Assembly (NCBI RefSeq): GCF_963675165.1
Contig: NC_087381.1
Location: 4,961,378 to 5,025,377, forward strand
DNA: 64,000 nt
Origin: Halichondria panicea
Taxonomy: Eukaryota; Porifera; Demospongiae; Suberitida; Halichondriidae
Direction of reading: 5' to 3'
A program made the translations under genes and the position numbers. Below the pieces are notes generated by a model that saw nothing but the letters and a program-made list of their open reading frames with translations, was not told the origin of the DNA and did no database searches. This document shows, piece after piece, positions 12,087-59,987 of the stretch (position 1 is its first letter; every line of letters begins with the position of its first letter).

Positions 12087-15000
12087 ATGGCTACAAGTTC
12101 TGCTCTGCTGGTGATCTTTGTTGTCTGTATCTGTATAGTATCTGCGCAGATTCCAGTGCCCTCGTCCATAGGTCCTGCAGTTACCCTACCAACTACCACC
12201 TCCTCTGTGGAAAGTAAGTATAGTATTCCTACATTTATAATTATAATTATTACAATACATGCTGCACAACTTCGTATAAACTACACTTGCACATGTACCT
12301 TTCACCTAACTAGTAGGGTGCACCATTCCATGGTACATTTACCTGCTTAGTCTCCTAGTAGTGCATTTGCTTATTTTTTAATGGTCCATCAATTTCCATG
12401 TTATTTGAGCTCGTTGCTCGTGGTAATGTTCTGGTTGATAGGTAAACAGAACCAAACTAAACTTACGATGCACTGGAGCAACATAATGCCCATACAATTT
12501 GTAGCCTTGAAAGGTTATAATTACTGTGTGTCCGTAATGTAATTATGTACACGTAAGTGTGCAAATAACGTTTTTATGTTCATGAGTTTTGTTATCCTTT
12601 GCCAAGTCTGGAGCACTGGAAGTCATGGTTTTGGTTTTGGTGGTTTCACGTGTTATGATTGCATTTTTAAGCCACAGCGTTTTAGTGGCTCTGTTCAAAC
12701 TTGTGGTTTAAATATTCTATGGCCGTGTACGATGCTGTTGCTTGATGATAATGAATTGATTATGAAGTGTGCCATGTTTTGAAACAGTTGTTGTGTTTGG
12801 GGACCCTAAATGTAATACGATCGCTAAATGCGATTGTGTTTGCAGTGATAATTATGGTGTCATTCTCGTTTGCTCATTGGAGATCAGTATGCATAGAGCT
12901 TGCAACAATTGACATAGAAAGTACTAAGATATCGTTAATGTCATAATGTAATCACCACTCTCTTCAATAATAACAATCGAAGCATCCCGTTTAATCACAC
13001 CTAAAATGTCAAATTAGTTTACTGATGGATGGATTCTGTTTATATGAAACTATGTTTGAATATTCTATGGCCGTATATGATAATATTCTTGTGTTTGTCA
13101 CTTGATAAGTTTGTCACTTGATAATCAAGAAGCGTGTATCGAAGCACCCCATACACGGCATGTTGTATCTGTATCGATAAGTCAGCCAGTCATGTTACTC
13201 ATGTACATGTAGATTGATGGTATGAGATAATTATGTGCTAGCGAATAATATCTGACTTTGTAGATAGTCATGTGTTAATGGTTATTTGTTAGTGACCTTA
13301 CTGATAGTATTCACAGTGGTACCCTCTATGGCTAGTGTTCATTCTCACACAACTAACTCTAATTGCACGATCTGTTGGTATGAATGTTGACAGCCAGAGA
13401 TGAGCCTCGAGTCCAGGCCGATTTTTGTTTATTGTAACGCTACCTCTGAACGTATTCACAGCTATGTATCACTCCATGACTATTGTCATGTTATTCCCAT
13501 ACTAACTAATGATTGCACAATCTGTCGGTATGAATGTTGACAGCGATGTGCTCACACTGTGCATGGCGGTGGTATTGACCACCTTTAGACAAAAAGAACC
13601 ACTTCTTAGGCCTTGTTTACTAGATTGAAATAGCCACTATTTTGAAAATGCTGGCCACATCACAAGACAGTGTAGAAGATGGTCAACAAAATTCCCAGCT
13701 ATATACGTGTATGTACATGTACTAGACACTACACTATGCCTTGCTTCTAGGCTGCACAGTAATTGGAATGCATCAGCTCTGTACTTACGTTTATATTTAC
13801 CCTGAGCTATGCAGCATGAAATATTAGATGTGCGATGAAGGAGCCTCAGGTTGTAGATCTGGAGGTACAGAGCATATACATATACATGTACATGTACATG
13901 TAATAATATGCACTGCCAGAATGCGTTCGTTAATTTCTGTCCGGCAATGATAATCATAGTTATGATTGTTGAAATAATTATTTCACAATGGCTATTATAG
14001 GCACACCTACATGTATGCATCTATATAAGCATGCATGCACACACAGTACAATCATACATGCTTATTATTCATAGTCTAACAATCACTAACTGACGTACCC
14101 CCCCCCCCTCCACTTCCAGGCTATGGTGATGTGTTAATGTTCCCACAAGACCCCACCCCAACGAAGTACTTCAGTAACAAACTAGACTTTGTCAGCATCA
14201 ATGGAAGCCTCCTCGTCGGAGCTGCGTAAGTTTCTATGTTGCAGGCCGCTGTGATAGACTGATAGACTAGCAACAGCCTATATTCTAAGGGCCTATATTG
14301 TAAGGACGGAAGTGTCTATCGGTTGAGAACTCTTATGAGCATTTTAATAATTGAGAGAACTGACAAAAAACACATGTATGGCTCAGACTTATCTGAGATC
14401 CACAGTCTAAAAATAGAGTCTATAAATACACATACATTAGATCTGTACATTCCATTACATCTGTACACAATTAAAAAATCAGTTTTTTTCTCATTAGTCC
14501 ATCACAAGCGGCACTGAATGGTTGGTGGTGGTTGAGACAATAATAGCCATCACTTCACTTAAATGTACATAAACATACATGCAAGTCAATTGATTTCAAT
14601 ATAAGCTTGCGTTACTTTCTCCCTCTAGGGACACACTTTATCTGCTGGATAATGATCTGAATGTATTGGACACTCTCACTTGGATTAACCCCTCTCAGCC
14701 TGGCACCTGTGACTTTGACAACGCGGTGAGCTCAACTGTGTATTGTAGTAGCTACAGTGTAGCAGTAATACATGTACAATGTACATGTATCTCCTAGCAA
14801 CAGCCTCTATTGGGCTGTGCCCCATTTTGTTGCTGATAAAATTTTTGTGGCTAACCAGTACAGTGTACACTAGATTTTTATTTTCACTTGTTTTGTAGCA
14901 ACTAATTCATCATTATATATATTATATACATGTACATGGTTTTTATTAGTACTCAGTAATTTATGTACTTAAAACCATGCCTCCTAACACATTGAAGTGG

Positions 15001-18000
15001 CTGCTCCCAAAGGGTTCTATAACTGATTTAGAATAGTGCTAAGCAAGCTAGGCTATATTAACACAAAGAAGACCCTGCAACCAAGAGTTTCTACAAGCTT
15101 CAAGCAACGTTGAAACTTCGCTCTGGCTAGTCTACGTAAAAAACTCACATTGAAGGCCGTTTCCGTCTCTTGAGAATCATGCATAGCAAAAACTGCTAAT
15201 AGAAACTTGCTATTCTACTATGGTTAGCTCTACACTAGAGCACTAGCTATTGGTAGCTGCAAGAGTAAGACAAAAGCTGCAAAGCTGCACTGCAGAACAC
15301 AAAAATACTAAATTAATTTTTAATGATGCACTGCATCATCATTACTATGACTTCAACATAAATTTCCATAGGCAAGTACATACCTTAAAGTTACATATTT
15401 TCGCGTGTATTATGCTATTTCTGCAAATGAGAGTAAAATCGCAAAAATTAGTACTCGCAAATAATTGGCCTTGTTTAATGTATCCAGATCGACATTTTTG
15501 CAAAAATTATAACAGCATAAATGTACAAAACTGTAAAAACGCAAACAAATCTACAACCTGTGAAAATATGTCACCTTAAGGTATAATGGACCTCTGTAGA
15601 AGACCTCTACTGAGGTCTCTAAGTGAAATAAGGGGGACCCTCTCAGTAACCAATCAGATTGCACCATTTGTGACAAGCATTTTCTATATTCAGAGAGCCC
15701 CACTTTATACATCAGTAAATAACCTTTTCTTCAGGAGTATATTTGTCGGAACCACATTCGTGTGTATGAGAGTATTCCAGGTGGTGTGGGCGGTGTGCCC
15801 GCTCTGCTCGTGTGTGGGACCATACCCAGCTCCAACTCGTTCCTCACCCGGTCCATCTCCGCCCAGTGTCGGACCGTGACCATTGTGAGTGGTGTGGGTG
15901 TGTGAATGGTGTGTGTGTGTTTGTGAGTGGTGTGGGTGTGTGAGTGGTGTGTGTGTGTTTGTGAGTGGTGTGGGTGTGTGAGTGGTGTGTGTGTGTTTGT
16001 GAGTGGTGTGGGTGTGTGAGTGGTTAAATTGCTCCACATGTGTGAATATGTTACTATTGAAGGGCATGTAAAGTTATTTTTAAATATCGTGTACACAAAT
16101 TGATACTGTGTGCGGTACAATATGCACTCAATGTCATGTTTTCATTCTATGTTTTGATTTCAGGTTAACTCCCGGTTTGGTAAAGTTAGCAATGTGTCTG
16201 ATGATGTTGAAGGTCTCATTACTGTTCATCCAGATTTGCCAGGGTTTGGAGAATTCAGAAGAAGTAAGTTTGAGGAGTGTGAGTGAGAGTGGGAGTGAGT
16301 GTGAGTGTGAGTGGAGTGTGAGAAGTGGAGGGTTGGTTGTGGGGATTACAGTTTGTGTACAACAATGTCCCTCAACAAAGTCAAGCATGCGTTTCTAACT
16401 ATTGTGAAATGTTATGTACATGTTCTCTCAGGGACTGTAAAAATTAGCAATCAAAATTAGCAATCAAGAGAGTCTTACTTACGAAACCTGATATACAGTG
16501 TCAAGGTTTCATCTAGTGGGGGGGGGGGGGGAGCAGGGGTGAATCTTCCCCCCAAATGGTGTAGAATATTGACATCATCACATTAGTTAATCAAACATTT
16601 TGCAGTGTGCTTATGTGCGCCCAAATCTCCCCCCCCCCAACTTTTTATCCTAGATGAAACCCTGCCGTGTATACAACCTTTTCACCTCACTTGAAATACA
16701 CATTTTAAAAACAAAAAGAAATGTACCACTAATTGACCTCAGGTATGTACATGTACATATAGTAATAGTCAGAGCTGGGCATGTTCACAGTTTCAAATTG
16801 TTAATGAATGATAGATTGTGCAAGACCTAGATCTAAGCCTTCTTTAGAGTGATGTGCAAGACCTAGATCTAAGCCTTCTTTAGAGTGATGTGCAAGACCT
16901 AGATCTAAGCCTTCTTTAGAGTGAATCCTATAGACGTTTAAGTGCACGGCATAATGTGGCATCACTTGTAGATCTACCAGTAATCTGAATTTCAGGTAGT
17001 CGGCTTTTCAAATCATCTCAATGACGATCAGTTTATCGTGAGATCATCTAGACAGTGCTCCCTTGGGCTGGCTTTATTAGCAGACACATCTCCAGCGTGT
17101 TGAAATCTATCAACAACCCTCCAAACAGTAGCTTCAGCAACAAACAATCTATCTACTGCTTCCTTAATGGTACAGCAATTGACAAGCCTTTGCCATATAC
17201 CATTCTCCACCTCAGATCCTCATGATAGGATTTTGTACGGCCAGGTTCCCCCATTATTACTTGGTCTTGCACAATCAATCATTCATGAAACTGTGAACAT
17301 GCCCAGCTCTGACCATTACTATATGTACATACCTGAGGTCAATTAGTGGTACATTTCTTTTTTTGTTTTTAAAATGTATATTTCAAGTGAGGTGAAAAAG
17401 GTTGTACGTACTCTCTATCAAACGTGTTTACAAGCACTATCACAACTTGAATCTGCCACTACATGTTCTCTCATGCATGCACTCTCTCCCCACAGGTTCT
17501 GAAAATGACACTACTTATTTATCGGCCAGCTTCACAACCCCAAACATTCGCGACTATGATCTTGCTTATCTAGACGTCACGGTGAACTCTAGCACTGCCG
17601 TGCCGTCTGCAGTGAGGGACTATGGGTACTTAACATTCCGCAACTTTTGGCTATATTGTGAGTAGGTCTCTATAGGCGATGTACATGTCGGCGTGTACAG
17701 TGTCTACTAATATACTAGTTGAACAATGGTGGTACAGTTTGTATCAAAAAATGTGTTAAAAAGTGTTTGTTTTCTTGTTGGGGTATTTGTTATTGCTGTT
17801 ACCACATACATTGTACATGTACATGTACTGACAGTATCTCAGGGTTCTTCCCAGGATGAGTTGAGTGGTGGCTAATTTTGAGTGTTTATTTACACTACAT
17901 TCAATTTCAGCAATTCTAGAGACAAATTGCACCAGAACATTAATTTTATTGATGTTTATTAAAGACATGCAAGTGTTATATAAAAAATAAAATTAACATT

Positions 18001-21000
18001 GAATCACTAAAAATAGATGGTTAGTTTCTTCTCTTCTTTTTTGAAGCCCAAAGCCAGTCATTTGCAAATCTTGTGGCCTACTTTCCTCCTTTCCCACTTG
18101 CTGTGGAGTGGCTTGACTCATAAGTATCAGCAAAATATGCAACTCCTGGTTTAACTGCATCATCATCACTATATATACAGTAGCTGCTAGCACTGGCACT
18201 GGAATCAGTTTCTTGGCATCTCCTCTTAGAAGTATAGGACTATATACTGTCTATCTCTAAGTCTTTGGATGTAGCACTAGTCACTGTCTAAAATAGTTTA
18301 GAATAGTTTACTAACTTGGTATTCTTTTTGTGGTACTGATTATTGCTGAGTAATAATGCGCATGCTCAGAACAGCTGCAGCTGCTTAGCTGTAGAGTTAC
18401 TAGTGGTCGCAGAGAGGTAAGTGGTGGTCGTTTATAGAGCTGCAGTGGTCGGTGCCGACCACTGTGGGCAGAACCCTGGTATCTCCACCACATCCCCACA
18501 CACACCATTGACCCATCCCACACATACACCCCCACAGTCCCAGTGGTATTTGTAGACTACAAACGTGAGAACTACCCTCGTCCCCCGGGCAGTACAAATG
18601 ATGCTGCCTTTCAGTTTTACTATGTGTTTCTACGAGAAAACTTCCAGATTGACAACAGGGAAGTGCTCTATAGCAGAGTCATCAGAATATGCCGGGTGAG
18701 TAATAGTGAGGGTGCCGGGCAGGACTCAAAGGAAACTCCTACCGAAACTGAACTAGTCTATTTGTTTCTGTAGCAGGTGGTGGGTAAGCAGCGCCAATAG
18801 TTGAACTTTCAATACCTGTATTCAAAGTGATCATAACACGTTACTTTAGAAGATACATTTACATGTACATATATGTACAGTTGTATTCTCTAAAAATTCA
18901 AAATACATCTGCTCTCTTTGATTGTTGCACTGTACATGTATACTGTAATATAGAAATTTAAGTCTTCCTTTCTTCTTTCTACAGAATGATCCCGGAGTGA
19001 CGTCTACCTCTCAAAATCGAGAGCAGATATTTAGTACCTACCTTAAGTCTCGTATATACTGTCTTAGAGAGATGCCCACCGGCACTGAGTTTATAGGTGC
19101 TCAAGATTTCCAGTACAACGAAATGTGTGAGTATGAGTTACTACATGTATGTGTACATGTAGGTACATTGTACAATCATGCATGCAGTATAGCTATTAAT
19201 TTAGCTTGCTCACGATAATTATTTTACCCCACGGAAATTACCCGCTATACGGTACATGTATACTTTTGGCAATCTGTTGACAAAGTCCTCCCACCTACCT
19301 AGCAATACGGTATGGAGACTTACATCATGTAGGGGCCCATTAATTAACCTGCTGTATTATAGAGCTGCTTAAGGGTGACCACAATAGATATGTGTCACAT
19401 TGCATGTACCACGTACCTCACCCCACCACTCTACAGGGAGCCTCAGCTTCAACAAGGACGAGGGCGGCCGTTACTACTCAGATGGACAGTACAACAAGTA
19501 CCTATACGCCGCTTTCTCCGGACCACTGTGAGTTGATGACTAGGGGATGGGCCCTTTATAAGGTTGCTGTATATAATAATGAACCTTACGAGTGCATGAG
19601 GGCCTCTTTCAGGGCATATAAATTCGTTTTAAAGGCTGTGTTTGTGTGATTTATCAAGCATACAGTGTCCTTATAAAATTATGTATATGTATTTATATAC
19701 TCCTGGTGTACTGTACATGTGTACATGTAGTTGTTTATAGTGTAATTAATACACACACTGTTATTGTACTTGCCTCAAGTGTCACAGGTCAGCTCACATG
19801 ATTCATCCACCCAATACAACACACACACACACCACATGCACAGTGTTGGCCCCACTGGCACAGCCGTGTGTGTGTACCCCGCCTTCCCAGCCCATCCCAC
19901 CGGACAGAACACCCTCAACGATGGGATATTCGATATCTTCCAGGGGGACCTTGTCATCACAACCCCCTCACAAGGTGAAAATGCAGAGGCTACCTCTTGA
20001 TCTTGTACATGTATGATCTGTGTTTTCACTTCATACTCACCCACCCAGGCGGCAACACTGAACGCCAGAACACACTGGTGGAGTGTTTTCCCCAGGGCCG
20101 CAACGTTTCAGGGGACGCAGAGGATATACTGCTCGTCAAGGACATTGAACAACTGGGGGATGACCCTTTAATTGTCCTGGATGGACTTCAGTGAGTGCAC
20201 ATGTAGCTTCAATCACTTGTGCAGCTATACAGTCATGTATTTATAATCAAGTGTTTGTATTCTTTATTATGCCTCGAGGTGTGTGTGTGTATTCCAGCTG
20301 TAACTGCTCAACGGTTGCAACGCGACAAAAACTAAGCTTTTATAGACTCCACGTTCTCTTGGATTTTAATTATTGGATTTTCAGTTTTGTTCTCCAATTA
20401 TGGCAGTTGGCTAATTTTACTTACAGTGAAAGCTGTTGCAGTCTAGCATCATCTGTTTCCATTAAGCGCCTCTCCTATAATAACTGTGTGGAATATTTAA
20501 TTCATTCGTTGTCATAATAATAGTGTTATGTTAATAAAACGTAACATTATTATAACACTCTTAGACTAATAGTTTTTGAGCGAAAGCAAAACATGGCGAG
20601 AGGCATTAGCACAGCGCAGCTTGCAGCAGTCGTTATAATAGTTTTCGTTTCTACATGCATGTACACTGTATATATACGTAGTTATTATATAGGTACATGT
20701 ACACACTGTACATGTACCTATATATACTGTATATATAGTTATTATATACACATGCTTTGCTACGTTGCTGCACTGTTTGAATAAGCAAATTGTTACGATA
20801 ACTACATGACATGTCATCCAACATGCCTGTTCATTGTTTCCTCCCCTTGGGTAGACTAACAGTGGCTGTATTATAGTGGGTGGCCTGCTAACACAGGTTG
20901 TAACACGGAGAATGTATTATAGTGGGTGGCCTGCTAACACAGGTTATAACACGGAGAATGTATTATAGTGGGTGGCCTGCTAACACAGGTTATAACACGG

Positions 21001-24000
21001 AGAATGTATTATAGTGGGTGGCCTGCTAACACAGGTTGTAACACGGAGAATGTATTGTATTGTAGAGCTATACAATGTATGTATCTAGATAGGGTGACCT
21101 GCTTACAGGGCAGTAGCCCGAAATCTTGACAAGTAGGATTTATATAACGAGTGTTTCTGTTATTTTCTGTGTAGCGTGACTCAGCTGTTGGTTGATGAAG
21201 TGTGTGTGGTGACAAAGACTGACCCCACCTCCTGTCGTAACCAAGATGTCCTATTCCTCGGAACTGGTACGTACGTGTACTCTAGATATTGAATATAGCT
21301 GTACATTGATATACATGTAGCTGAATGTTGGAGGGTGAGGTGGTTTACTTTGCCATAAATCCTTAACAACCATAGTATGAGTGTTATACAATGTATATCC
21401 TACATGTATAATTTAATAATATCGATATCCTAATAAACAGGACTCTAGGTTCCATACATGATACATGTACATAATTATTACTGTACATCTGTTTTGTATG
21501 CTGATATAAACTTTTGCGGAAATATCGTTAAAAATGACTTCCCGGGTGGTAGATTGCATGCATTGTTCATAGGTGGGTTTATACCCTTGCAGTAGAACCT
21601 ATTGTACATTATATCATAATTATGTTACATGTACATGTATAGTGTCTGATTTGGTACCTGAGTTCAATTGACATTGTTTTTGCAGACAATGGAATGGTTT
21701 ATAAGGTGATTATGGCCACGGTAACCTCGGGGCTGACTGGAAAAGTGGAACCAGTTATTGTGGATAAAATACAGGTACTTAGAAAACTTGCTATGTAGTC
21801 TTCTACTGATCACTTTGAGAAAATTCCTTCCTTAAATGAGTACATGTATTTTTCGTAGACAGGGGGTGAGGAAAGGGGGGATATCCCTCTCCCCCCCTAA
21901 AATTTGCATTCAAGTACATGTAATTGAATTTTCTAGTTACTTTTCTTATTTCCCCCCTCTACTTCAAAATCCTGTATGTCCTAGTGCATATTTGTGCTAC
22001 ATGTAAGCACAAGTACATGTATACTTGGTGTCAATGTGTGTTCTCACTTTACAGCTTGGTGACTCCTTGAGTGTTGATGAGATGCAGTTAAAGGTCAGGC
22101 CTCAACGTGTTCTGCATGTGTATTAATGGTATTCATAGCCTACTTACCGTACATGCATGTATATGTGAAGGTGAAAGGACGGTTCTTTGAATATAGAGTG
22201 CATGCTGAGATATTTTAAATCAGTGTGTGTCTTTTCATTATCAGTGCATGCAATGTACGTATTTTTCCTACCTCACAGCGTGTTGATAATGGAGACAAGC
22301 AGTTGTTTGTGACCACCGCTAGTCGAGTGTACCGTCTACCACTAGAGAACTGCAACAGACACGGAGCCAATTTCAGGTGATTGCTTATCACGTGCAGTAC
22401 TGTGTTCAGTGTAGCTATAGGTACATGTATATCGGAAACCTCTCATTTTGGGAAAAGTACAAGCCTAGTATAATTATTATAACCTTTGTTTCGGTCAGAA
22501 TTTGGCCTAGTTCCAGTTGGCTAAAGTTATGATCACCCAAAAGGAGATGCACTGCTGATATTATGTGTCAATGTACATGTATCCAGGGAGGCCACACTGG
22601 TCGGTAATGGTGGTTGGTACTAACTACCTGTAAACATAAATAACCATCTAGGAGATTGAGGATTGAAAATAGCCACTGCTTTGAAAATTCTGTGCACATC
22701 CCTGTGTATATCTTACACTGGAAGCCATAGAGATCAAACGAAAAGTATGCCTATGCAGCTGGCAACCACAGTGCTACCCATTTATGTGCAAGCAACCACT
22801 GGCAACCACAGTGCTACATTGTACACGTATCTATGCCTACAAGTGTACATGTACTAATTAAGTGCTCTCCCTTGATCCTGTAGCGCTTGCATTGGTTCCC
22901 GTGATCCTTACTGTGTGTGGGACAGTGTGACTGTGAGTTGTGTGAAGAGTACTCTAACGGCAGTCGACAATGCAGTTGGATCAGTGCCATCAGCGTAAGT
23001 GGGTGTGACAAGTGTAGAAGTATGGGCCGAGTTTAGATGTAATTATTTGCATGTATAGTGTAGGTACAATCATGTACATGTACCTTAGAAACAGTGGTGC
23101 CCAATTATAACCCGAGGCGCGCCACGGGTAAGGCCACTCCAAATGAGACTGTAGTTTCCCGTCAGAGACTCCAGTAAATTATAAGCGGATGTGAGCAGTA
23201 TTATCATTATTCATTATTATAAATGAATTTAATTAATTAGCCACACAAATTCAGCCAACCATGTGCTTGGAGGCAACAAAGAACAAGAAAAAAGTAATCT
23301 AAAAAGAAAACTACTGATAAAGATACTGCACCAATGTGAATTTCGACCCATACTTTTCTTTTAGATTAAAAAAAAGTCAATATTTCATTGATAATTAGAG
23401 AAATAATGGCCATAATGACTATTAATGAGGTAGCTAAAGCAGGAAGCGCGAGTTGGACGGGAAACTACAGTCTCATTTGGAGTGGCCTTATAGTAGTCGG
23501 CCTGTCTGTCGTTCTGTGTATTCTGAGTCTGCTCATTTACATGTAGACGCGATAGCGCTGTGTTTGTACCATGGATAGCCTCAACACAACAAAGTAGTAG
23601 TTTTAAATTTACAAGATTTTGATGTTAAATCTTCGTTGTTGAATAAACCGAGCAAAAAAGCTAAAACGCTAAAAAGCTCAAACCCGCACGTTGGCCTACA
23701 TGTAGATGTACATGCAATCGCTGCTTTAACTGAGTCTGTAGACTCACTAAACCTCAAATTAACGTGGATGGAGAGTTTACAGTTCAGTGCTAACCACCAT
23801 GACCACCGTGACCTCATGTGTATTGTGTATATAGGTGGTCCCTAATCTAGTTAACTGGTATCAGTGGTGGTTGGTTGCCAAGGCATATGGTATTGTTACA
23901 TGTAGGTGCAATTATAGTGATCTGTGTTTCCAAATCTCATTGACAGGTGGAGACAAAACATCCACACTGGCCAGGACACTGGTGAGTTGACCTACAGTGT

Positions 24001-27000
24001 GTTTTGTTAGTAGCTGGTGTACTCAGTACTCAAATATGATGATGCGTGTACATGTACGTTGCATTGAAGTACTAGCAGAAGTGTATTCATGCGCTCCTGG
24101 TACTACATTTGTAGCTATAGCTATAGCCAATGCAACAATAATTTGTAAACTTGTCAATAAAATAACCAGCAGTACATTGAAATCTGTTTATAGTTGCTGC
24201 AATAAGGAGGTGACCTGCTAATGCATGAACTTCTATGGAGACTTTGTGCCCCATTAACCTGGCTGTATTATAGAGGGTACTGTACATGTACCTGTTTATA
24301 GAGTGACCATGCACAATAGACAAGTTTCACTCTACATGTACAGTACATGTAGAGGTAGCAAGAGTGTTCTTTAGAGCACCATTGTATAAATATGCTCTTG
24401 CCTATAATTATTATTAACCCTTCCTTCCCTCAATTTCACCCACTCCTTGTACAGTTCCTGTGGTGTGGTTCGCTCAAACCCAGCTAGTGGTGGGAGAGGG
24501 TGATGGGCCTCTGTCTGTGGTCATCATGTCAGACATTAGGGTCTCGGACAATGTACTGGAGCTCATCATTGAAGACGGAACAGCTACAGGTACTGTATGA
24601 CTGCAGTGTTTTGTGTGGTGTGTACTGTATATACTGTTACAGTAGTGGATCCAACCTCTAAACGACTTGTTTGTACCTCTTACATGTATAATTATTGAGA
24701 CCGGCGACATTTATGGAGAAGTAGAACACCCTACCTGAAGTGTAATTGTTGTTCCTAATGACTACACAATTGGTGGTGGTGTCTTAATACTTACATGTAC
24801 GTGTATTAGACACTGGTACTGTGGAACCTTTAAATGACTATAATGGTTCAATAAATTATATTATTTGCCTCTTTCATGTAGTACTTAATTGAAATGAAAG
24901 CACCGCAGGTGCTGATGCCTCGGTGGAGATGCCAAAGCTACATAACATAAAGCTACTAATAGCTTAATTTTTTACACATGATGAACCTTTTTTAATTTGC
25001 ATGCTGCATGCAAACTCAAAGAGTGGGTAATGATCGACCATGATTGTTGTTAAAAGCGATCAATGCCAAAGTTCAAGTCTAAATTAATGGCTGCCAGCAG
25101 CAGAGCCTTGCAGCTCTCTCCTCACTCCTGCAGCTACCAATAGCTAGCGTTCTAGTGCAGAGTTAACTACTAAGTAGAGTAGCAACACTCGGTAAACAAG
25201 TTTGGCTACGTGCTCTTCCGAAAAGGCTGCAATGGCATTCCAAGTAAGCAAAACTAGGCATAACTCGAGAACGAAGCATTATTTTGCAAATCCACTAGAA
25301 GCCTATAGAAAGTCTTACTTGCACTTCATTGATCCTTGAGCAGCTGTAGCAGTCTACACACACACAAACACACTATCGTATACCTCGCTTGCGCATGCGC
25401 ACCGAGGCATAACTAGGCCTACATGTAAGTGGTAGTTATTATTTGGTCTATAGATACACTGTATGTGGTTAGTACAAACCAGTACAAACCAGTGTGGGCA
25501 CATCCCTGAATTATCAGCACCCCCATTTCTCCCTTGCAGCTGGACTGGACTTTGTTGTACCCTCAACTATCGTCAACTTTCCATCCAACCAGAATCTGAC
25601 CACCGTAACCATAACGATCATCCCACGTGCCATGTCTACTGGTAACCTTCAGTTTAGTCTTCGAATGCGTAGCAGTGGATCCGGAGCCTTGGAGTTTAGG
25701 AACCGTTCTGTCATAATAACTATTGTGGATGAGCAGGGTGAGATTATTACTTATGAGTGTGATGATCCTTTGCCTAATTACTAACTTTTGTTGTATTATT
25801 ATGTGCATACATACATGTACAGTAGTTACATGTACGATGGGTGTGTGCGTGTGTGTGTGTGTGTAAGCACTTGTACATGTATGTACGCAATTCCTGTTTT
25901 ATGTAGTCATTTACAATTTGACCCCCCCCCCCCCCCCCCCTCCTCCAGCCGTCCTGTTCCAGTTGACCATTGGAGGACTGGGCACTCGGACCTGTCAGCA
26001 ATGGATTGTGAGTGCTCTGTGATGTACATACAGTTCATGTACATGTGTGTAGTGGGTTGTTGGAGGCACACATCCACTAAAAACGACACTGTGCAAAAAT
26101 TAGCATTGCTGAGATAAGTTGGTTGCAGTTTTCACTCGACCAGAAGCCCAACTGTCTAATGCAATCATTCATGTACATGTACATGTACCAGAGTCAGTGT
26201 AATTTACTTTGAAGCTCATTCACTGCATTACCTACATGTATGTCTGCTATAAACATTATTACATGTATTTCTGTCTCCAATTATATTTTATCACCCACCC
26301 ACCCACTGCAGCAATTTGAGCCGTCCAATAAAATTGCAGCAATCACAGCGGACCTACTGGACGCCTTCATCCCATCGGCAAAACCGGAGGATTACGAAGA
26401 CACTTTCGTGCAATCTTCTTTCACTTGTGCCGACAAACTCTCAACAGATTACAAAGAATTTGCAATTTTCAGATCATTGATTGACGTTTCTAAACTTAAC
26501 ACCAATAGAACTGAGGTATTGAGCTCTCTCGATAACTGGGTTAGAAAGCAACCAACCGTAACTTACGGAGAATCTACACTCACTGTTCTAACTGATTCGA
26601 ATTGTGACACTGTATTGAACTCACTTGACCAGCCACTATGTGCTTACGATGGGATTACAGTCGGGGACCCTGCAGGTGTGTTGTCACCCAACACTGGAGC
26701 CGAGACTACTACTGTACTGGGAGGGGTATTGGGTGTTGCTTTTGCAGTGATGATTGGGTTGGGTTTGGTTATAGCCGTGCTGGTCGGTGTGATGCTTGTG
26801 AGTAGGAGAGCAAGGCAACGCAAGTCCAATGACGTTACTGATGGGTAAGCCATGTGACTGCATGTGATATTCTTTTACTAGCGCTACGGTAGAAATCACT
26901 TGTATATTAGTGAACCTAACCATCATGCATACATGTATTTTTGTATCTCCATTGGCTTTGAACCTTACATCCACACTTGAATTTATTTTATGCTCTCGAA

Positions 27001-27086
27001 GAAAGGTCAGGCACTCGGGTCCCAAATGAACAGTTACACATTAGTGATGTGCGTTGAGGTGGTGGCTATTTTCAATCCTTAATCTC

Positions 27087-27141
<55 letters not shown>

Positions 27142-27464
27142 TTGCCTCTGTTTAATACGTAGTAAACTAGACGTAAAAAATAAGTTGCTGCTTTAGTCTA
27201 GACATGCATTATCATAAATTAATGTGAACTCAAGCCTGTTGTGTTTTCTGCTATGCTATCTATTACTGGTATTGATCATTCGCATACTAACCGTTACACC
27301 ATCTATTCCATTGCAGTCCCTCTCCTAAAAAGCAGAACAATGCTTCTAATCCCAATGGACCACCGTCAGCTCTGCCGCTTATCCCCGAAGAGAACCCATT
27401 CAACTTTAATATACCTAATCAATCCAATGGGGACACGGATCATGAAGTAGTAGCAAAGCTGTGA
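12087..27464 (+). CDS. Sema-PSI-Calx-beta single-pass membrane protein (semaphorin-like), 980 aa
   Basis: Twenty-two exons, all in phase: 12087-12213, 14120-14225, 14629-14725, 15735-15884, 16164-16263, 17496-17657, 18538-18695, 18985-19126, 19437-19527, 19844-19974, 20049-20190, 21175-21266, 21686-21774, 22055-22093, 22279-22376, 22884-22994, 23947-23981, 24455-24589, 25540-25737, 25949-26007, 26312-26844, 27317-27464. Signal peptide 1-20. Sema propeller about 43-574: YICRNHIRVYE, ALLVCGT, YLSASF, FYYVFLREN, YSRVIRICR, LKSRIYC, AVCVY, LFLGTDNGMVYKV. PSI 575-611 with CIGSRDPYCVWD. Calx-beta about 626-735 (VGEGDGPLSV, DGTATAGLDFVVP, VDEQ). An unrecognised Cys-containing stretch of about 130 residues follows, then a transmembrane helix about 888-911 (stop-transfer RRARQRK) and a tail of about 69 residues. 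No plexin GAP or kinase domain, so it resembles a transmembrane semaphorin more than a plexin. Sema proteins act in cell-cell guidance; ligand or receptor role here is unknown. Confidence 0.85.
12214..14119. other. Intron 1 of the sema gene
   Basis: About 1.9 kb with no nested gene. It holds diverged internal duplications (gatctgttggtatgaatgtt near 13370 and a similar block near 13517) and a run of tacatgtac words at about 13885-13902. Confidence 0.5.
15000..15580. repeat. Diverged copy of the 0.5-kb dispersed repeat family (intron 3 of sema gene)
   Basis: Around 15200-15270 the words ttagctctacactagagcac and gctattggtagctgcaagag match the interior of the copies at 24893-25410, 29810-30369, 30370-30901 and 46098-46678. 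The rest is strongly diverged and the ends are not clear. Confidence 0.45.
15885..16022. repeat. 38-bp minisatellite made of splice-donor-like units
   Basis: Starts exactly at the donor of sema exon 4. Units of the form gtgagtggtgtgggtgtgtg repeat about four times, each beginning with GTGAGT, the same hexamer as the exon 4 donor. His/Thr-rich open frames on the opposite strand are artefacts of this repeat. Confidence 0.8.
16493..16668. mobile_element. Short element with poly-G/poly-C arms (intron 5 of sema gene)
   Basis: The left end aaggtttcatctagtggggg and the right end cctagatgaaaccctgcc are imperfect inverted repeats flanking a unique core. Similar ends recur near 31740-31770 (gagatgaaaccctgg). 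No coding capacity. Confidence 0.55.
16672..17408. mobile_element. 737-bp transposon derivative with about 145-155-bp inverted arms (intron 5 of sema gene)
   Basis: The left arm (16672-16826) and right arm (17265-17408) are reverse complements with a few mismatches, for example cagagctgggcatgttcaca on the left and its complement at 17290-17310. The interior has three tandem 36-bp copies of gtgcaagacctagatctaag... (16818-16924) and a transposase remnant on the minus strand. Confidence 0.8.
17028..17260 (-). pseudogene. Tc1/IS630-like transposase N-terminal fragment (helix-turn-helix)
   Basis: Begins with an ATG at about 17255 giving GRTKSYHEDLRWRMVY, then needs a frame change to continue as LVNCCTIKEAVDRLFVAEAT and VWRVVDRFQHAGDV. 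This looks like the helix-turn-helix N-terminus of Tc1/IS630-type transposases. The catalytic DDE/D part is absent. It lies between the inverted arms of the surrounding element. Confidence 0.6.
20870..21053. repeat. 46-bp tandem repeat, four units (intron 11 of sema gene)
   Basis: The unit attatagtgggtggcctgct continues with aacacaggttgtaacacgga. Units start at 20870, 20916, 20962 and 21008 and are nearly identical. There are no unique spacers, so this is a minisatellite. Confidence 0.95.
21856..21985. repeat. Copy of the cagggtgtcatacag element family (diverged)
   Basis: Shares aaaggggggatatccctctc, ctaaaatttgcattca and cttatttcccccctctactt with copies at 40657-40815 and 44660-44859. The left end is degraded. 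Confidence 0.55.
23129..23490. mobile_element. 362-bp MITE with about 34-bp perfect inverted ends (intron 16 of sema gene)
   Basis: The left end taaggccactccaaatgaga continues to gggaaactac-type sequence; the right end (23457-23490) is its exact reverse complement. It is bounded by TA. The interior is non-coding and AT-rich. Confidence 0.85.
24893..25410 (-). mobile_element. 0.5-kb dispersed repeat family, copy A (intron 18 of sema gene)
   Basis: In reverse orientation relative to the other copies. Ends are aatgaaagcaccgcaggtgc (a small hairpin) and gcgcatgcgcaccgaggcat. The interior word gagtagcaacactcggtaaa is shared with copies B, C and D. No coding capacity. Confidence 0.8.
27088..27140. 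repeat. (CA)n microsatellite
   Basis: A pure CA run in intron 21 of the sema gene. Confidence 0.95.
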
Positions 27465-46209: not shown

Positions 46210-49200
46210 TCAAGAATCAATGAAGTGGCAAGTAAGAGTTTCTATAGGCTTCTAGTCATGTTCTCTTGGATTTTAATGGATTTGCAAAATAATGCTTCGT
46301 TCCTCGAGTTATGCCTAGTTTTGCTTACTTGGAATACCATTGCAGCCTTTTCAGAAGAGCACGTAGCCAAACTTGTTTACCGAGTATTGCTACTCTACTT
46401 AGTAGTTAGCTCTGCACTAGAACGCTAGCTATTGGTAGCCGCAAGAGTGAGAAGAGAGCTGCAAGGCTCTGCTGATGGTAGCCATTAATTTTACACTTGA
46501 ACTTTTGGCATCGATCGTTTTTAACAACAATCATGGTCGATCATTACCCACTCTTTGAATTTGCATGCAGCAAAATTGATCAATGCAAAAATGTTCATCA
46601 TGTGTATATAGTAGCTTTATGTTATGTAGTTTTGGCATCTCCACCGAGGCATCAGTACCTGCATGCGGTGCTTTCATTTTCTTAATTAGCAATTTGTGTT
46701 TGTTGTGGACTACATGGATATATAATAATTATTATACATGTCAAGCATAATTCATTTTTATTTTAGTGATGCTTAGCTGTTTACCTTGCATCATGATACT
46801 GTATACCCTCGCGAAAATACATGCACCCCCGGGCCCCTTTTTCTGCAAGAGCTTTAGGTTTGAGAGGGACAACGAGGTTGATAGTAGTTCATAATAGCAA
46901 ACGTATTTCTTAATGTATACAGGTCCACTGTCAGTCGTATAGAAGGGCCCTCGTGAAGAAGATGTACATGTGTACCGTATGTATCGACACATGTCTGAAG
47001 CCATAACTATTTAATAGAGGGGGACTCTTAGTAAGGTGTGAGTTGCACTCTTAGTAAGGTGTGAGTTGCATATCCTGCCCTGCTATCAATGTGGTTGGTG
47101 TAATGAAAGTAGTCATTAGTCTACCTCATAGCAGGCAGCTTTCTAGCTCTATACGAATCCAATATGAGGTACTGCACCTGGGCATACAAGTGAATCCGAG
47201 GCCATGCTGCATGCATGCCTGGCCACCTAGAACATGATGTTGCAGCTGTAAGAATGCAATATCGAGGTAGTAGTACTGCACCTGAGTGAGACATGCAGGC
47301 AGCCCACAAGTGAAGCCAAGGCCAACCATTATGTCAGAGGAGGTGTGAAGCACTTAACATAATTGTATAGGTATCTGCATCAGCCATGATTAGTGCTGTC
47401 TTTGTTGCATAGTCACATGACCATCTCTATACGTGGATCCATCGATTAATTACACTCTTGATAATAATTATTCAACGGTGCCAGCTGGCTATAATATATA
47501 GATATAGTAATAGAGCAAACGATTGATTTCTATAGCGAACTGAACTAGAGCCGCAAAAGTAAATCTAGCTGCAAGTTGGCATCCATGTCCAGTAATGCAA
47601 GTTGGAACGATTCCTTGGCGTATATGCATGCACTGGTGTTCCAGTTGGAGTTCTATTTCCCTTTCCAGACATACCAATTGGCATTACCGATCTGGTCTCT
47701 CTGTTCATGTGTATCTAGTTGCGTGGGCAACATCCACATCCATTATAGCTATAATTTTTGTTTTAGTGTTTTCTGTTCATCTTGTTTGTTCCTGTGTCTA
47801 TATGGTTATTGATTTAGTATATGATTGTGATTATTATGCAACAGAGACCTATAATTAGGTGCTTCGCACCTCCTCTGACAGTTTCACATATCTGCATGTC
47901 AGACTGAATTAATTTCCCTGCATGGGAATCTTCTCATCATTCTACCCACATGCTTGTATACATGTATAAGGAAACAGTAATTAAAGCACTGAGCAAGTAC
48001 TGTACGTCATAGAACTGTCTTTCATTCTATATATAGCCACGATTCTTATGTACATATCATCATGACGTAAGGGGGTGGTGGTTAATAATTGTGGTCACAT
48101 TAGAGAGTATGTATAGTGCATGGAGGGTCGTAATTTCAATGCACTGCTGCGTAGGGACTTCAATGTGGTGTATAGGTATAAGCAGTCATTAGTCTACTCC
48201 ATAGCAGGCAACTTTCTGGCTCTATATAGGAATACAATAATTATAAGGTACTGCACCTGAGAAACCCAACAGTACATGTGAAGCCAAGGCAAGGGATGTT
48301 GCGGGCACTTTTACTCTGTGGGTGATGAGCCATCCAGGCAACCCACAATACTGTCATATTATTTTTACACATGTATAATTTATAAGGAAACAGTAATTAC
48401 TTCCTGTATGCAATAGTGTAGTATGCATAGAACTGACTTTCATTTTTCAGCTTACTATAGCCATGATTCTGATGTAATATTATTATCATTACGTAAGGGG
48501 TATTATACAGGGGGGGGGGGGGGTGGGGGTCAATAGATCGTGGTCACGTTTGAGACTATTTAGTGGAGCGTCGTGATTTCAGACCAGCAAAATTGCCAAG
48601 TGCAAAAATAATATCACAAATCTCTCTGTGCCTGGGTTTGATTGGCATTGCTTTAGCTGCACCTGCAGTTGTACCGCTAACAAGCAAAGATGCTGCCCTC
48701 CCTAACATAACCGACTGGATGAAAAATGGATTATTTGAACGTGATTTGAAACTCTCAAAAGAATTTATCTTGGACCACTACAACTTCAGCAGTATTCCTG
48801 GTGGAGAGAAGCTTCGGGACTTGCTTATTGAAAAGGATGATCGATCCAATTCCTCAAAACGTATCGAGCGACGTGGGGCCGTAAAAAAAGGAGCGATTAA
48901 TCTATGGACTGACGGTATTGTACGATATCGAATTTCAAGCGGCATCTCGCAGTCAACTGCAGCATTGATCAGAAGAGCCATGGATCATTTTGAAGATCAT
49001 ACCTGCTTGAGTTTTGTTACCGCTAACTCGGGAGATTACATCGACTTTGTCAACACTGACAGTAGATGCTACTCATGGATTGGAAGACGTGGCGGAAGGC
49101 AAGTGATTAACTTAGAGTCCACAGGATGCGAACATTTTGGAGTTGTTGTTCATGAGATTGGTCATGCGATTGGTTTTTGGCACGAACAGAGTCGACCGGA

Positions 49201-52200
49201 TAGAGATCAATATGTGAACATCCTCTTCGGTAATATTGTGAGCGACGAAGCTCAATTCATGAGAAAGAATGACAATGCAGTTGACTCATTAAACTCCATT
49301 TACGATTATGGATCAATCATGCATTATGGTCGAACATACTTTAAAAAACCAGGCTGCTCGGGATCTGGCTGTACAACCATTTCAGTTAACAACCAAGTTG
49401 AGTACAATCGACAAGGCAGGCCCTCTTTGGGACAGAGAAATGCACTAAGTGTTAACGATATTAGGCAAACGAATCTGCTTTATGGCTGCCCTGTGATGAA
49501 TCTTGAAGTGTATATTCGGCACGCTCGAAATCTTAGAGACACAGACCCATGGCTAAACGACCCAGATCCCTATGTGAGAGTTCAAGCAAGACGGGCCAGC
49601 GATTCCGTGGTGACTAAATCTACCCGAGACATAGGAGGAACAACAAGTCCAACTTGGAATGAAAGGCTTAACTTTGGCTGTCAGATATGGAAAAATTTCG
49701 AATTACAAGTTTGGGACGAGGATAACTTTTTGACATTTGGAGACGATGAGATGTCGAATAAAGAGTTGGTCTCAGTGAGTCCTGGGAATCATATCAGCCA
49801 AAGGCATAATGCGCATGGTAACGGATATCTTATTTATGACTACAAATTGATTAAAGACACTAATGATTGCCGTCCCAATCGCTGCCAAAATGGTGGTACT
49901 TGTATTGACGAGTGTACAAGCTATCGATGCTTATGCCCACAAGGATATTCCGGAACCAATTGTGAATATCTGTCTGGGAATCTTGTAGTGTATGCTCGTT
50001 ACGGTCGAAATCTTCCCGACAAAGATGGGTGGTGGAACAAAAGTGACCCATACATGGAGTTTATTGCAGTAGATAGATTCGGTAATTCGCGCAAACTAAC
50101 CACAAGTGTTAAGTCGGGAAACCATAATCCAAACTGGAACCAGTCACTGAACTTTGGCCGTCGAGCTTGGAGCTACTTTCGAGTAAGGGTGTATGATTCT
50201 GATAATAATGCTGATGATGCAATGTCCAGTAGTGAGACCTTCTGGTTGCCCAGTCCAAATTATTCACGATCTTACGTTTCTCACAACTGCTACAGTGGTA
50301 ATGCCGTGTTTGACTATTCTTACACTAAATGAAAACTCGATATACTAACTAAAGACTACATGTATAGCTACATTATAACTGAGATTTTCCAGTTACTTGT
50401 GTTGTGATAATTATGTTGCTGATTGATTTTCCAATAGTATAGGTTTGAAGCTACGTTATAGTGTATATTTGCTACATAATTATCTGTTTAAAATTATTAT
50501 CTCAATACATCACAATGAAGTGTTTTTGCTGTAATTCAGAAATTCGAGAAAGTTTATTTGATTATACGTGCATGCGCATGTATATACGCGAAGCATTAAT
50601 CTTCCACTTCCCCCACACAATTTGTTTCGTTTTCTCTGGTGTTTTAATAATCTTGAACCATTACAACTTCAGCAGTATAGGTAGAGAGAACAGTGGTGGA
50701 TCCAGGGTCAACCAGCCTTCCAGTTAATCTACAGTGGAACCCTCTATAACGGACACCTTTGGGGAAAATGTTTTGGCCTTTATACAGAGGTGACGTTTGT
50801 TGAGAGGTTGTTTTGTACACAAACTGTTCATTTGGGACCTGGGTGCCTGGCCGTTATTCGGAGGTGGTTGTTAACAGAGGTTCCACTGTATTTCTGTATA
50901 TTAAACTTACTGATTCCAGTAGCTATACACAATGTACTGTCATGAAAACCCACTACAGAGTTCTCTCAGCATGATAAGAGGGTGGGTGGGGGCTGCCTAC
51001 TGTCTGGGTCAGCTAGTCTGGGGCATTGGGGGCTTGAGCACCTCCCTGGTCTCTTAGACTATGTCTATCGCTCAGTACTGGTCCAGCTAGCAGGTATTAA
51101 GTAAAACCTCAGTGAAACCCTCCTTTCACAATTCCTGGATCCGCCCCTGGAGAAGCTTTGGGACATGTTTATTGAAGAGGATAATGGATCAAATTCCTTA
51201 AAACGTATTGAGCGACGTGGGGCTGGAAAAGAAGGAGTGATTAATCTATGGATTAACGTTATTCAATAATTATGTGAGAGTTCAAGCAACACGGGCCAGC
51301 GATTCCGGGGGACTATATACGTCGACCTTACAGTGGATTTTCTCATTGGAAAACATGGTGGAATAAAAGTGATTAACTTGCGGTCTCTGCTCTGCGAAAC
51401 GTATTATTGTTGGTTTTTGGCATGAGTAGAGCTGACCGGATAGAGCGATATAATTATGCATGTATATTACTTTTACAAACCATCTCAGTTCATGAGAAAT
51501 GATGATTACTGAAATTCACTCATTTGGCAGGCACCCCATGCAGTGCTATAGATATTAATATCTCAACATGCTCATTATGAGGTGACCTCGTTGCTTCCCT
51601 GCAGATACAGCTTATCTCCCTCATGATTGAACCACTAACAATGGCTGCCAGCACAACTCAGGTAAAGTATGTCAATGTATAGTTAAACGTGTTGCTTGTA
51701 AACATTTACAGTATAGCCAATGTAATTGTTACCTTAGTAACACCTACGTATACAGTATCTATACCATAGTCAATTCAAACATACGAGTCTCTATAATTAT
51801 TAGAATAGTTGTAGTCTTACAATTGAACGACATGAAATATTTTTATTCCTGAAGGCTGGTATTTCATCGTCCAATGAGGTGATGACGTTACTGGGGGAGG
51901 TGGTCTCCATGCTCGCCGTCACTGACAACGGACGACATTGCTTGCTCTATGGGAGATGCAATAAGTAAGGACAACGACGATATAATATTACACTACAGAC
52001 TCTACAGTAACTGTGAAAACTTCAAAAAAGGAATGCTTTGGGAAAATTATATATGTGTTGTTCTCGTAGATGCAGCGGTTCTCCATTTATTAGGAGCCAC
52101 TGTGTTTGTTGTAGGGACTTAAATGCGTATCTATAGTAACTCCTTGTTGTACCGCCCCCACACAGATTATCGGAGGCCCCAGTCCATGTCATAGTGAAGT

Positions 52201-59472: not shown

Positions 59473-59987
59473 TCTCCCGATGGTAGTGCTATTTGAGCAG
59501 TAATAATAATACTAATTCAATCTCTTGACTGTTTATAACACAGTAGGCGTTATTGGCCCAGCAGGTTTTCCCAATAAGTTTCACTATAAGTTATGTAAAC
59601 ACAGTCACTGTGTGATAGACGCCATGCAGTAATAATTAAGTCACTTGGTAATAATTATCATAATCGCATGTTGTCCTATTATTGACTGTGATTCGAGCCC
59701 TACTATTAATTATACTAATCACTGAAAATTGTACTTTAAGATGAGAAAAGACGGTTAGGTAAGTGATAACAGATTTAAATAAGTTAGTCCCTCTATTTAA
59801 AATACTGATGTTCAATGCAAAATATATATTAATTATTTAGGACATGTATAGCCGAGGCTTAATCTCAGTGTTGTATGTATGCAATTGAAATTGTTGCTGT
59901 ACAATAATTTGTAATTACACTAGCTGTCAACGTGTCCAATTTTATGAGATCCTTTTACTTACCATTATAATAGAATTAACGAAAGTG
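59473..59987. other. Intergenic region between TBC1D32 and the membrane protein gene
   Basis: 515 bp, AT-rich, with no repeat or gene seen. It must contain the TBC1D32 3' end and the promoter of the next gene, both on the plus strand. No clear TATA box or AATAAA was identified. Confidence 0.4.

Follow-up and report, generated by a model that had tools for sequence, protein, structure and literature searches.

A predicted membrane-anchored semaphorin of the sponge Halichondria panicea with a Calx-beta domain and a four-cysteine module between its Sema-PSI head and its transmembrane segment

We report here a gene of the sponge Halichondria panicea that probably encodes a single-pass, membrane-anchored semaphorin, in which a head akin to that of the Sema-FN class is carried on a stalk and anchor made of exon modules common elsewhere in the same genome. 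Replacement of a semaphorin stalk through exon shuffling is the most likely origin of this gene, and its domain order looks like the result of lineage-specific recombination, not like an ancestral blueprint.

Results and discussion

Gene model

The window, that is, the whole 64-kb stretch of DNA that was analyzed, contains the gene at positions 12087-27464. Its 22 exons, rebuilt from the raw sequence in a model that has genome sequence as its only basis, total 2943 nt and encode 980 amino acids followed by one terminal stop. GT-AG borders are found in all 21 introns, and G+C is 0.487 in exons versus 0.387 in introns. The open frame thus bears out the first-pass annotation, which had proposed 22 exons spliced in phase into a 980-residue product. 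The features, all on the + strand, are as follows.

12087..12213, +, exon 1: residues 1-43, with the start codon and a hydrophobic stretch resembling a signal peptide (hydropathy)
14120..22376, +, exons 2-15: Sema (residues about 44-565) and start of PSI (Pfam, PDB and exon matches to locus L030)
14120-14225, 14629-14725, 15735-15884, 16164-16263, 17496-17657, +, exons 2-6
18538-18695, 18985-19126, 19437-19527, 19844-19974, 20049-20190, +, exons 7-11
21175-21266, 21686-21774, 22055-22093, 22279-22376, +, exons 12-15
22884..22994, +, exon 16: bulk of PSI, closing with a phase-2 donor
22995..23946, +, intron 16: immediate stop on read-through; AATAAA/ATTAAA at 23365 and 23642
23947..23981, +, exon 17: 35-nt linker, phase 2 in and phase 1 out
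24455..24589, +, exon 18: N-terminal half of Calx-beta, residues 624-668, phase-1 entry
25540..25737, +, exon 19: C-terminal half of Calx-beta, residues 669-734, phase-1 donor
25949..26007, +, exon 20: first part of the four-cysteine juxtamembrane module, residues 735-754, phase-1 entry
26312..26844, +, exon 21: remainder of the module (755-about 885), the membrane-spanning segment and the first part of the tail
26717..26803, +, transmembrane segment, about residues 890-918 (hydropathy; predicted helix)
27317..27464, +, exon 22: remaining cytoplasmic tail, C-terminus ...VVAKL, stop

No Pfam match over cut-off was found in the exon 22 tail, and an Rfam scan of the whole window gave 0 matches, rRNA included. 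Outside the window, the starts (4-6 kb) of the small contigs C39, C31 and C24 contained no tRNA and, on inspection by eye, no gene of mitochondrial type.

Domains of the protein

The Sema and PSI signatures that had been recognized from the letters both exceed their Pfam gathering cut-offs: Sema at residues 367-541 (E=9.7e-9, 35.9 bits versus 23.7) and PSI, directly after it, at residues 566-614 (E=1.1e-5, 26 bits versus 23.1). Calx-beta follows at residues 622-717 of the whole protein (E=6.9e-9, 36.2 bits versus a cut-off of 27); residues 624-734 taken alone give E=4.6e-10 and 40 bits over profile positions 6-117 of 119. An Ig or IPT identity for residues 626-735 was rejected, as neither profile matched at a limit of E=10. 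No Ig or IPT/TIG match was found in the whole protein or in residues 624-734 at this limit, which is nominal since the filters of the scan drop most matches above about 0.1. Calx-beta stands where Ig or IPT domains had been said to be replaced. Hydropathy above 1.6 in 19-residue windows occurs in two stretches only, at the N-terminus (window starts 1-12) and near residues 884-922, so that Pfam and hydropathy together support the proposed order of Sema, PSI, Calx-beta, module and transmembrane segment.

Plexins and MET/RON share Sema and PSI with this protein, but the latter has no match to IPT/TIG, plexin cytoplasmic or kinase profiles; fn3 and RasGAP matches were likewise not found by Pfam in the 980 residues. 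The best PDB sequence match is Drosophila Semaphorin-1A (E=4e-18), versus 2e-5 for the best plexin, and by such sequence comparison the protein is nearer semaphorins than plexins or MET.

Kinship of the head

Judged by sequence identity, the Sema-PSI head is closest to the genome's own Sema-PSI-FN3 gene, L030 (C11:300000-309999), a member of the Sema-FN class: seven matched exon pieces are 36-63% identical, whereas identity to a Sema-PSI gene on C15 (L001) is 23% or 28% in two comparisons. The Sema-FN1 class, including L030, shares with our gene the Sema and PSI head; in L030 the candidate donor that closes PSI, located by eye, falls at the same residue and in the same phase 2 as that of exon 16. 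The two genes differ downstream: L030 continues after PSI with FN3 repeats (E=3.4e-14, 7.3e-11 and 1.4e-5, in three frames) and a transmembrane-like stretch, while the Calx-beta cassette and the four-cysteine module occupy that place here. As the 980-residue protein has no fn3 match, we do not file the gene as Sema-FN. Semaphorins of the Sema-PSI-TM type (L001 and L028 on C15, and L002-L004 on C11, the latter three assigned by eye) have in common with it Sema, PSI and a transmembrane-like stretch, but the L001 frame lacks a Pfam Calx-beta match. Amphimedon Sema-1A to 1C are of this type (PMC6374515).

One might ask whether a Calx-beta stalk defines an ancestral semaphorin class of sponges or animals, a reading that the kinship of the head makes conceivable, as the Sema-FN class is known from choanoflagellates, Amphimedon and Trichoplax and has been proposed as perhaps the earliest semaphorin form (PMC6374515). 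In the portion of that source available to us, however, none of the four semaphorins described in Amphimedon has Calx-beta (the string 'calx' is absent from this text) and those of choanoflagellates carry FN3 and SEA (PMC6374515). Moreover, one such gene was found in the genome, and its cassette and module match families that are numerous there. We consider an ancestral class very improbable. The preferred reading is a late swap of the tail, given a head that is kin to Sema-FN and the abundance of the Calx-beta and module families in the genome. The first-pass annotation had linked the gene, if its host was a sponge, to the assembly of sema signalling before nerves, a suggestion that this comparison does not support.

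The Calx-beta cassette

Exons 18 and 19 correspond, in intron site and phases, to split Calx-beta exons of the same genome. We examined 24 second-half exons from five loci, leaving aside the full-length single-exon domain at C5:7197510 and the first-half exons at C5:7198154 and 7199443. The acceptor is in phase 1 in 22/22 resolved cases, and in 19 of these 22 it precedes the D[YF] codon by 8 nt, as it does in exon 19; the donor is in phase 1 in 22 of the 24. Not every Calx-beta domain of the genome is split, as exemplified by the repeats at C2:272-278 kb, which run in one frame.

The family PF03160 (Na/Ca exchangers, integrin beta-4, FREM/FRAS) shares with this domain a profile match of near full length, but here a Sema head is attached and the acidic D...E..E positions are gone. 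These positions, together with a terminal acidic triplet, are presumably those that bind Ca2+ in exchangers. Our gene has R, T and L there, whereas the 25 rows compared with it have D (24 rows), E (24 rows) and E (all 25); these rows include C5:7197510 and are partly near-duplicates; the row missing from the two counts of 24 is a gap caused by trimming. The triplet reads DEQ and keeps two of its three acidic residues. It could be imagined that Calx-beta stiffens the stalk upon Ca2+ binding, as in Na/Ca exchangers, making this a Ca2+-gated semaphorin; the extent of the profile match and a weak likeness to Na/Ca exchanger chains (E=0.029) are compatible with such a role. The exchanger match, however, is itself acidic at the R, T and L positions. 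Since three acidic residues retained by neighboring Calx-beta domains are lost, Ca2+ binding by residues 624-734 appears doubtful from the sequence, and Ca2+ gating is the least probable of the readings that we weighed.

The juxtamembrane module

The Cys-containing module between Calx-beta and the membrane had been described as unknown. Our scans indeed found no relative in Pfam or PDB, but it is not a lone sequence: a large family, present at about 115 places, exists in the same genome. Identity to four such places on C4 is 27-30%, and a search started from one of these modules finds our gene at E=3.9e-4; pairwise kinship is weak, with E between 1e-4 and 2e-3. The four cysteines form invariant columns in a six-row alignment. 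In the Sushi/Ig transmembrane genes (L074-L077 on C4, L079 on C5), as in ours, the module is followed by a transmembrane segment; in L076 and L079, the two loci scanned for domains, it comes after Sushi and Ig domains. A phase-1 junction, identified by eye, starts the module in 4/4 of the C4 relatives. The module is unsplit by an intron in the Sushi/Ig genes, whereas in our gene it is divided over exons 20 and 21.

Residues 735-885 show, by eye only, a beta-alpha-beta-beta-alpha-beta pattern. When a possible SEA identity was considered for them, no Pfam match was obtained, nor was any PDB match with the six-row profile; the single-sequence structure model of exon 21 is too poor for use (mean pLDDT 48.7; blocks of the transmembrane helix at 80 and 88). 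No paper on SEA-domain proteins of sponges that also carry sushi was found in the open-access literature.

One fused product or two

Intron 16 separates the head from the stalk, and the locus could be read as yielding two products, or as two genes, with a Sema-PSI protein that ends just after exon 16 and is secreted, and with exons 17-22 forming a separate Calx-beta/transmembrane gene. A stop lies immediately past exon 16, the intron contains two poly(A)-like signals, and Calx-beta and juxtamembrane modules are found at many other genomic places. Yet exons 17-22 start mid-codon, and neither a start codon nor a signal peptide is obvious within them; the frames join unbroken, and there is a single N-terminal hydrophobic stretch. 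We therefore regard separation into two units as unlikely and retain the fused, membrane-anchored protein. The stop and the AATAAA/ATTAAA signals nevertheless make a secreted Sema-PSI product possible by intron retention, and such a form could accompany the fused protein.

Search for relatives

No second Sema-Calx-beta gene was found in the genome, although one could have been missed, as the exon-by-exon Sema and Calx-beta searches did not recover the exons of our gene itself. Comparison of residues 1-734 with genome contigs of other species gave 35 pattern matches, 0 of which were confirmed as an orthologue. No protein combining Sema and Calx-beta was found in the open-access literature, where, in the passages available, co-occurring terms stand apart. 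What is non-standard in this architecture is hence the union of Sema with Calx-beta, which has no published match in these sources; odd stalks in themselves are usual, published ones including FN3, SEA, Ig and TSP1 in the accessible part of PMC6374515.

Proposed origin and function

We propose that an FN3 stalk was replaced by exon shuffling downstream of the PSI exon, a direction (FN3 lost, Calx-beta gained) that we infer rather than polarize on a tree. The replacement would consist of one phase-1-bordered Calx-beta cassette, then the four-cysteine module with its transmembrane segment. The Sema head would be displayed on the cell surface and engage plexin-type ectodomains, Calx-beta and the module may act as spacers and not as a Ca2+ sensor, and the tail of roughly 60 residues may serve trafficking.

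In the same genome, about 28 genes that combine a plexin-type PSI with a MET-like kinase form an array. Plexin cytoplasmic exons are present at two places and represent candidate receptors; these genes and the array are possible partners of the Sema head.

Conclusions

The introns and their phases suggest that exon shuffling can exchange the stalk and anchor of a semaphorin and leave its recognition head in place, and the membrane-proximal module now has a family. A note of caution follows: when an early-branching animal shows an unusual order of domains, this should not be taken as ancestral. More tentatively, the gene may represent a new class of semaphorin, the head of a guidance ligand grafted onto the tail of a shuffling receptor superfamily, with the plexin-type PSI/MET-like kinase genes expanded alongside; this could link self/neighbor recognition or immune receptors to semaphorin signaling, as receptor and ligand. 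With this gene, one can ask directly if the semaphorin stalk matters for signaling in an animal without nerves.

Gene model and domain architecture

The gene under study was rebuilt from the genome sequence of an assembly of 131.5 Mb in 39 contigs, in which the window corresponds to C5:4961378-5025377, and is listed here with the other Sema genes discussed below.

window 12087..27464, + strand: 22-exon Sema-PSI-Calx-beta-TM gene
C11:300000-309999 (L030): Sema-PSI-FN3 gene of the Sema-FN class
C4:4090000-4099999 (L031): second copy of a Sema-FN head
C15:2836500-2843000 (L001/L028): Sema-PSI gene

As the first-pass annotation had proposed, the 22 exons splice in frame into a protein of 980 residues; all 21 introns have GT-AG borders and range from 74 to 1906 bases. 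In the spliced protein, Sema (residues 367-541), PSI (566-614) and Calx-beta (622-717) each exceed the curated Pfam cut-off and no Pfam match to Ig or IPT was found, which bears out the claim that Calx-beta takes the place of these domains. Scanned alone, the Calx-beta stretch matches profile positions 6-117 of 119 (E = 4.6e-10), while residues 735-980 have no Pfam match over a cut-off. Hydropathy places hydrophobic stretches at the N-terminus and at one other site, near residues 884-922. The best solved structure in a sequence search of PDB is Drosophila Semaphorin-1A (E = 4e-18), the best plexin scoring 2e-5; judged by sequence, the protein is a semaphorin rather than a plexin. A secreted Sema-PSI form is possible through retention of intron 16.

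Long open frames also occur in the window at 48554-50332 and 59889-63644. One long frame of the window encodes a protease in which Pfam finds Astacin (E = 1.3e-52), C2 and EGF domains; for a frame of 1251 residues, Pfam gave nothing with an E-value of 0.01 or less. Gene content is animal-like, the Astacin-C2-EGF gene being an example. The host is probably a sponge, as the genome holds a gene of the Sema-FN class with several FN3 matches. Two contigs of about 20 kb, C24 (L066) and C31 (L065), carry phage-like frames by eye and are probably not host DNA.

Relatives of the Sema-PSI head

When the genome was searched with the 980-residue protein (38 matches with E up to 10; 47 of 68 first-look candidates scored), the window was the sole locus, among the matches listed, to combine Sema and Calx-beta parts. 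Exon-by-exon family searches gave four matches for Sema and at least 152 for Calx-beta (150 of 645 candidates scored), but can miss such a gene, because the window's own exons are not among their matches. No Calx-beta was found within 1 Mb of Sema or PSI at 16 places outside C12 and C5, in a comparison with selected Calx-beta places (same contigs only, clusters reduced to some members).

Among the matches listed, the nearest other Sema exons are at C11:306-309 kb (L030) and C4:4.09 Mb (L031), with seven exon pieces 36-63% identical and eight pieces 33-63% identical to the gene's head, respectively. Identity of the head to the Sema-PSI gene on C15 is 23% or 28%, in two separate comparisons. In L030, the head is followed by FN3 and a TM-like stretch, and the donor of its exon 16 homologue lies, by eye, at the same residue in phase 2. 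From identity and gene structure, including this shared donor, the head is thus assigned to the Sema-FN lineage. PMC6374515 describes the Sema-FN class from choanoflagellates, Amphimedon and Trichoplax, the last with one FN3. Whereas L030 has several FN3 matches after the head, the gene under study has a Calx-beta cassette there.

L031 is very like L030, shows no FN3 repeats by eye in its 10 kb, and is perhaps a partial duplicate. In L001/L028, a single open frame of 804 residues holds Sema and PSI, both above the Pfam cut-off, together with a TM-like stretch, whereas the other Sema genes seen are split into exons; L001/L028 is possibly a retrocopy.

The Calx-beta cassette

Exon 16 encodes most of PSI, exon 17 a linker, and exons 18 and 19 the two halves of Calx-beta. 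Many of the genome's Calx-beta matches are divided close to profile position 51 and others are unsplit; the tandem repeats at C2:272025-277757, unlike the split kind, each hold nearly the whole domain in one frame. We sampled 24 second-half exons from five loci: the acceptor was resolved in 22 and is in phase 1 in all 22, 19 lying exactly 8 bases upstream of the D[YF] codon, and the donor is in phase 1 in 22 of the 24, two being read as phase 2. Exon 19 of the window agrees with the sampled exons in acceptor place and phase and has a phase-1 donor; exon 18 is likewise entered in phase 1. A unit bordered in this way can fit into a phase-1 intron with the frame intact, and exon 17 (35 nt) bridges phase 2 from the PSI exon to phase 1.

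Three positions that read D, E and E in 24, 24 and 25, respectively, of 25 sampled rows (one gapped by trimming, some near-duplicates) are R, T and L in the window's Calx-beta. The domain ends in DEQ, where the rows mostly have acidic triplets (D in third place in 18 of 25). The first positions are also acidic in the Na/Ca exchanger match, and in exchanger Calx-beta domains these acidic positions bind Ca2+. Since they are replaced here, the domain would be expected to serve as a structural spacer.

The juxtamembrane module

The 980-residue query matched residues 739-936 in part at C4:623587, 602270, 1409965 and 1416664 (27-30% identity, E 1e-4 to 2e-3), loci with Sushi- and Ig-like frames whose last large frame holds a 4-Cys module and TM. 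Among such Sushi/Ig transmembrane genes, L076 on C4 has both domains above the Pfam cut-off and L079 on C5 has Sushi above and Ig just below it; the domain content of L074, L075 and L077 was read by eye.

A search with module and TM of L076, in which 150 of the 164 candidates were scored, gave at least 155 matches with an E-value of 10 or less; at least 132 of them, counted by eye, have E up to 1e-3. With 12 pieces of one copy merged and five TM-end-only matches set aside by eye, the module occurs at no fewer than about 115 places, counting the L076 query and the window (E = 3.9e-4). These lie mainly on C4 and C5, and also on C1, C3, C6, C8, C10, C11 and C15; at the loci checked, the module adjoins Sushi/Ig domains. 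In a six-row alignment, where four of the five rows besides the window are closely related, the window's four module cysteines fall in invariant columns and a tryptophan is shared. The module is entered in phase 1 in all four C4 relatives, by eye, as at exon 20. The 'unknown Cys-containing module' of the first-pass annotation is therefore not alone in the genome, yet remains without a relative in Pfam (over cut-off) or PDB. It may be an undescribed domain family; its apparent strand/helix order allows a guess at a SEA-like fold.

Roughly the final 31 tail residues recur 1.6 Mb away (L078, C5:6616852-6616935), with 86% or 77% identity in two comparisons; this copy looks like a stray duplication of a portion of exon 22.

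Candidate receptors in the same genome

Plexin cytoplasmic exons occur at two places, C12:6.482-6.486 and 6.726 Mb. An array of receptor kinase genes occupies about 4.55-5.58 Mb of C12 (L033, L034, L017, L021-L024), in the order long N-terminal frame, PSI, TIG, TM-like stretch and tyrosine kinase exons. The N-terminal frame has no Pfam match, and Sema would be expected there by position only. The best PDB matches are Plexin-B1 for the PSI (E = 5.5e-11) and c-MET for the kinase (E = 1.3e-26); the E-values of EGFR and Mer differ from that of c-MET by no more than about 15-fold. Such a kinase exon follows in the same orientation, at most 12 kb downstream, for 28 of 31 C12 PSI matches, these being taken from 35 with E under 1e-5 (left out: 6491361, 6503817, 6501608, 6218127). 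As PMC6374515 dates the earliest Met receptors to the lineage leading to Bilateria, a non-bilaterian array of PSI/MET-like kinases would matter.

Proposed origin and significance

Most likely, exon shuffling after the PSI exon would have put the Calx-beta cassette, together with a juxtamembrane module of receptor type, TM and tail, in place of an FN3 stalk. The Sema head would then be displayed on the cell surface, where family membership suggests ligand activity; candidate partners would be the two places with plexin cytoplasmic exons and the PSI/TIG/MET-like kinase array. We favour a late, lineage-specific swap, and the suggested bearing on the early assembly of sema signalling finds no support in these data. 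PMC8242945 reports one Sema-domain gene and one plexin-group gene of Halichondria panicea up 6 h after LPS, which may or may not be relatives of the present gene.

Semaphorin stalks are already known to vary, with FN3 with SEA, Ig and TSP1 described in PMC6374515. We found no Sema and Calx-beta protein in searches of an open-access library, which is not proof of absence, and rate this domain order as a new stalk variation in a family already known for varied stalks.
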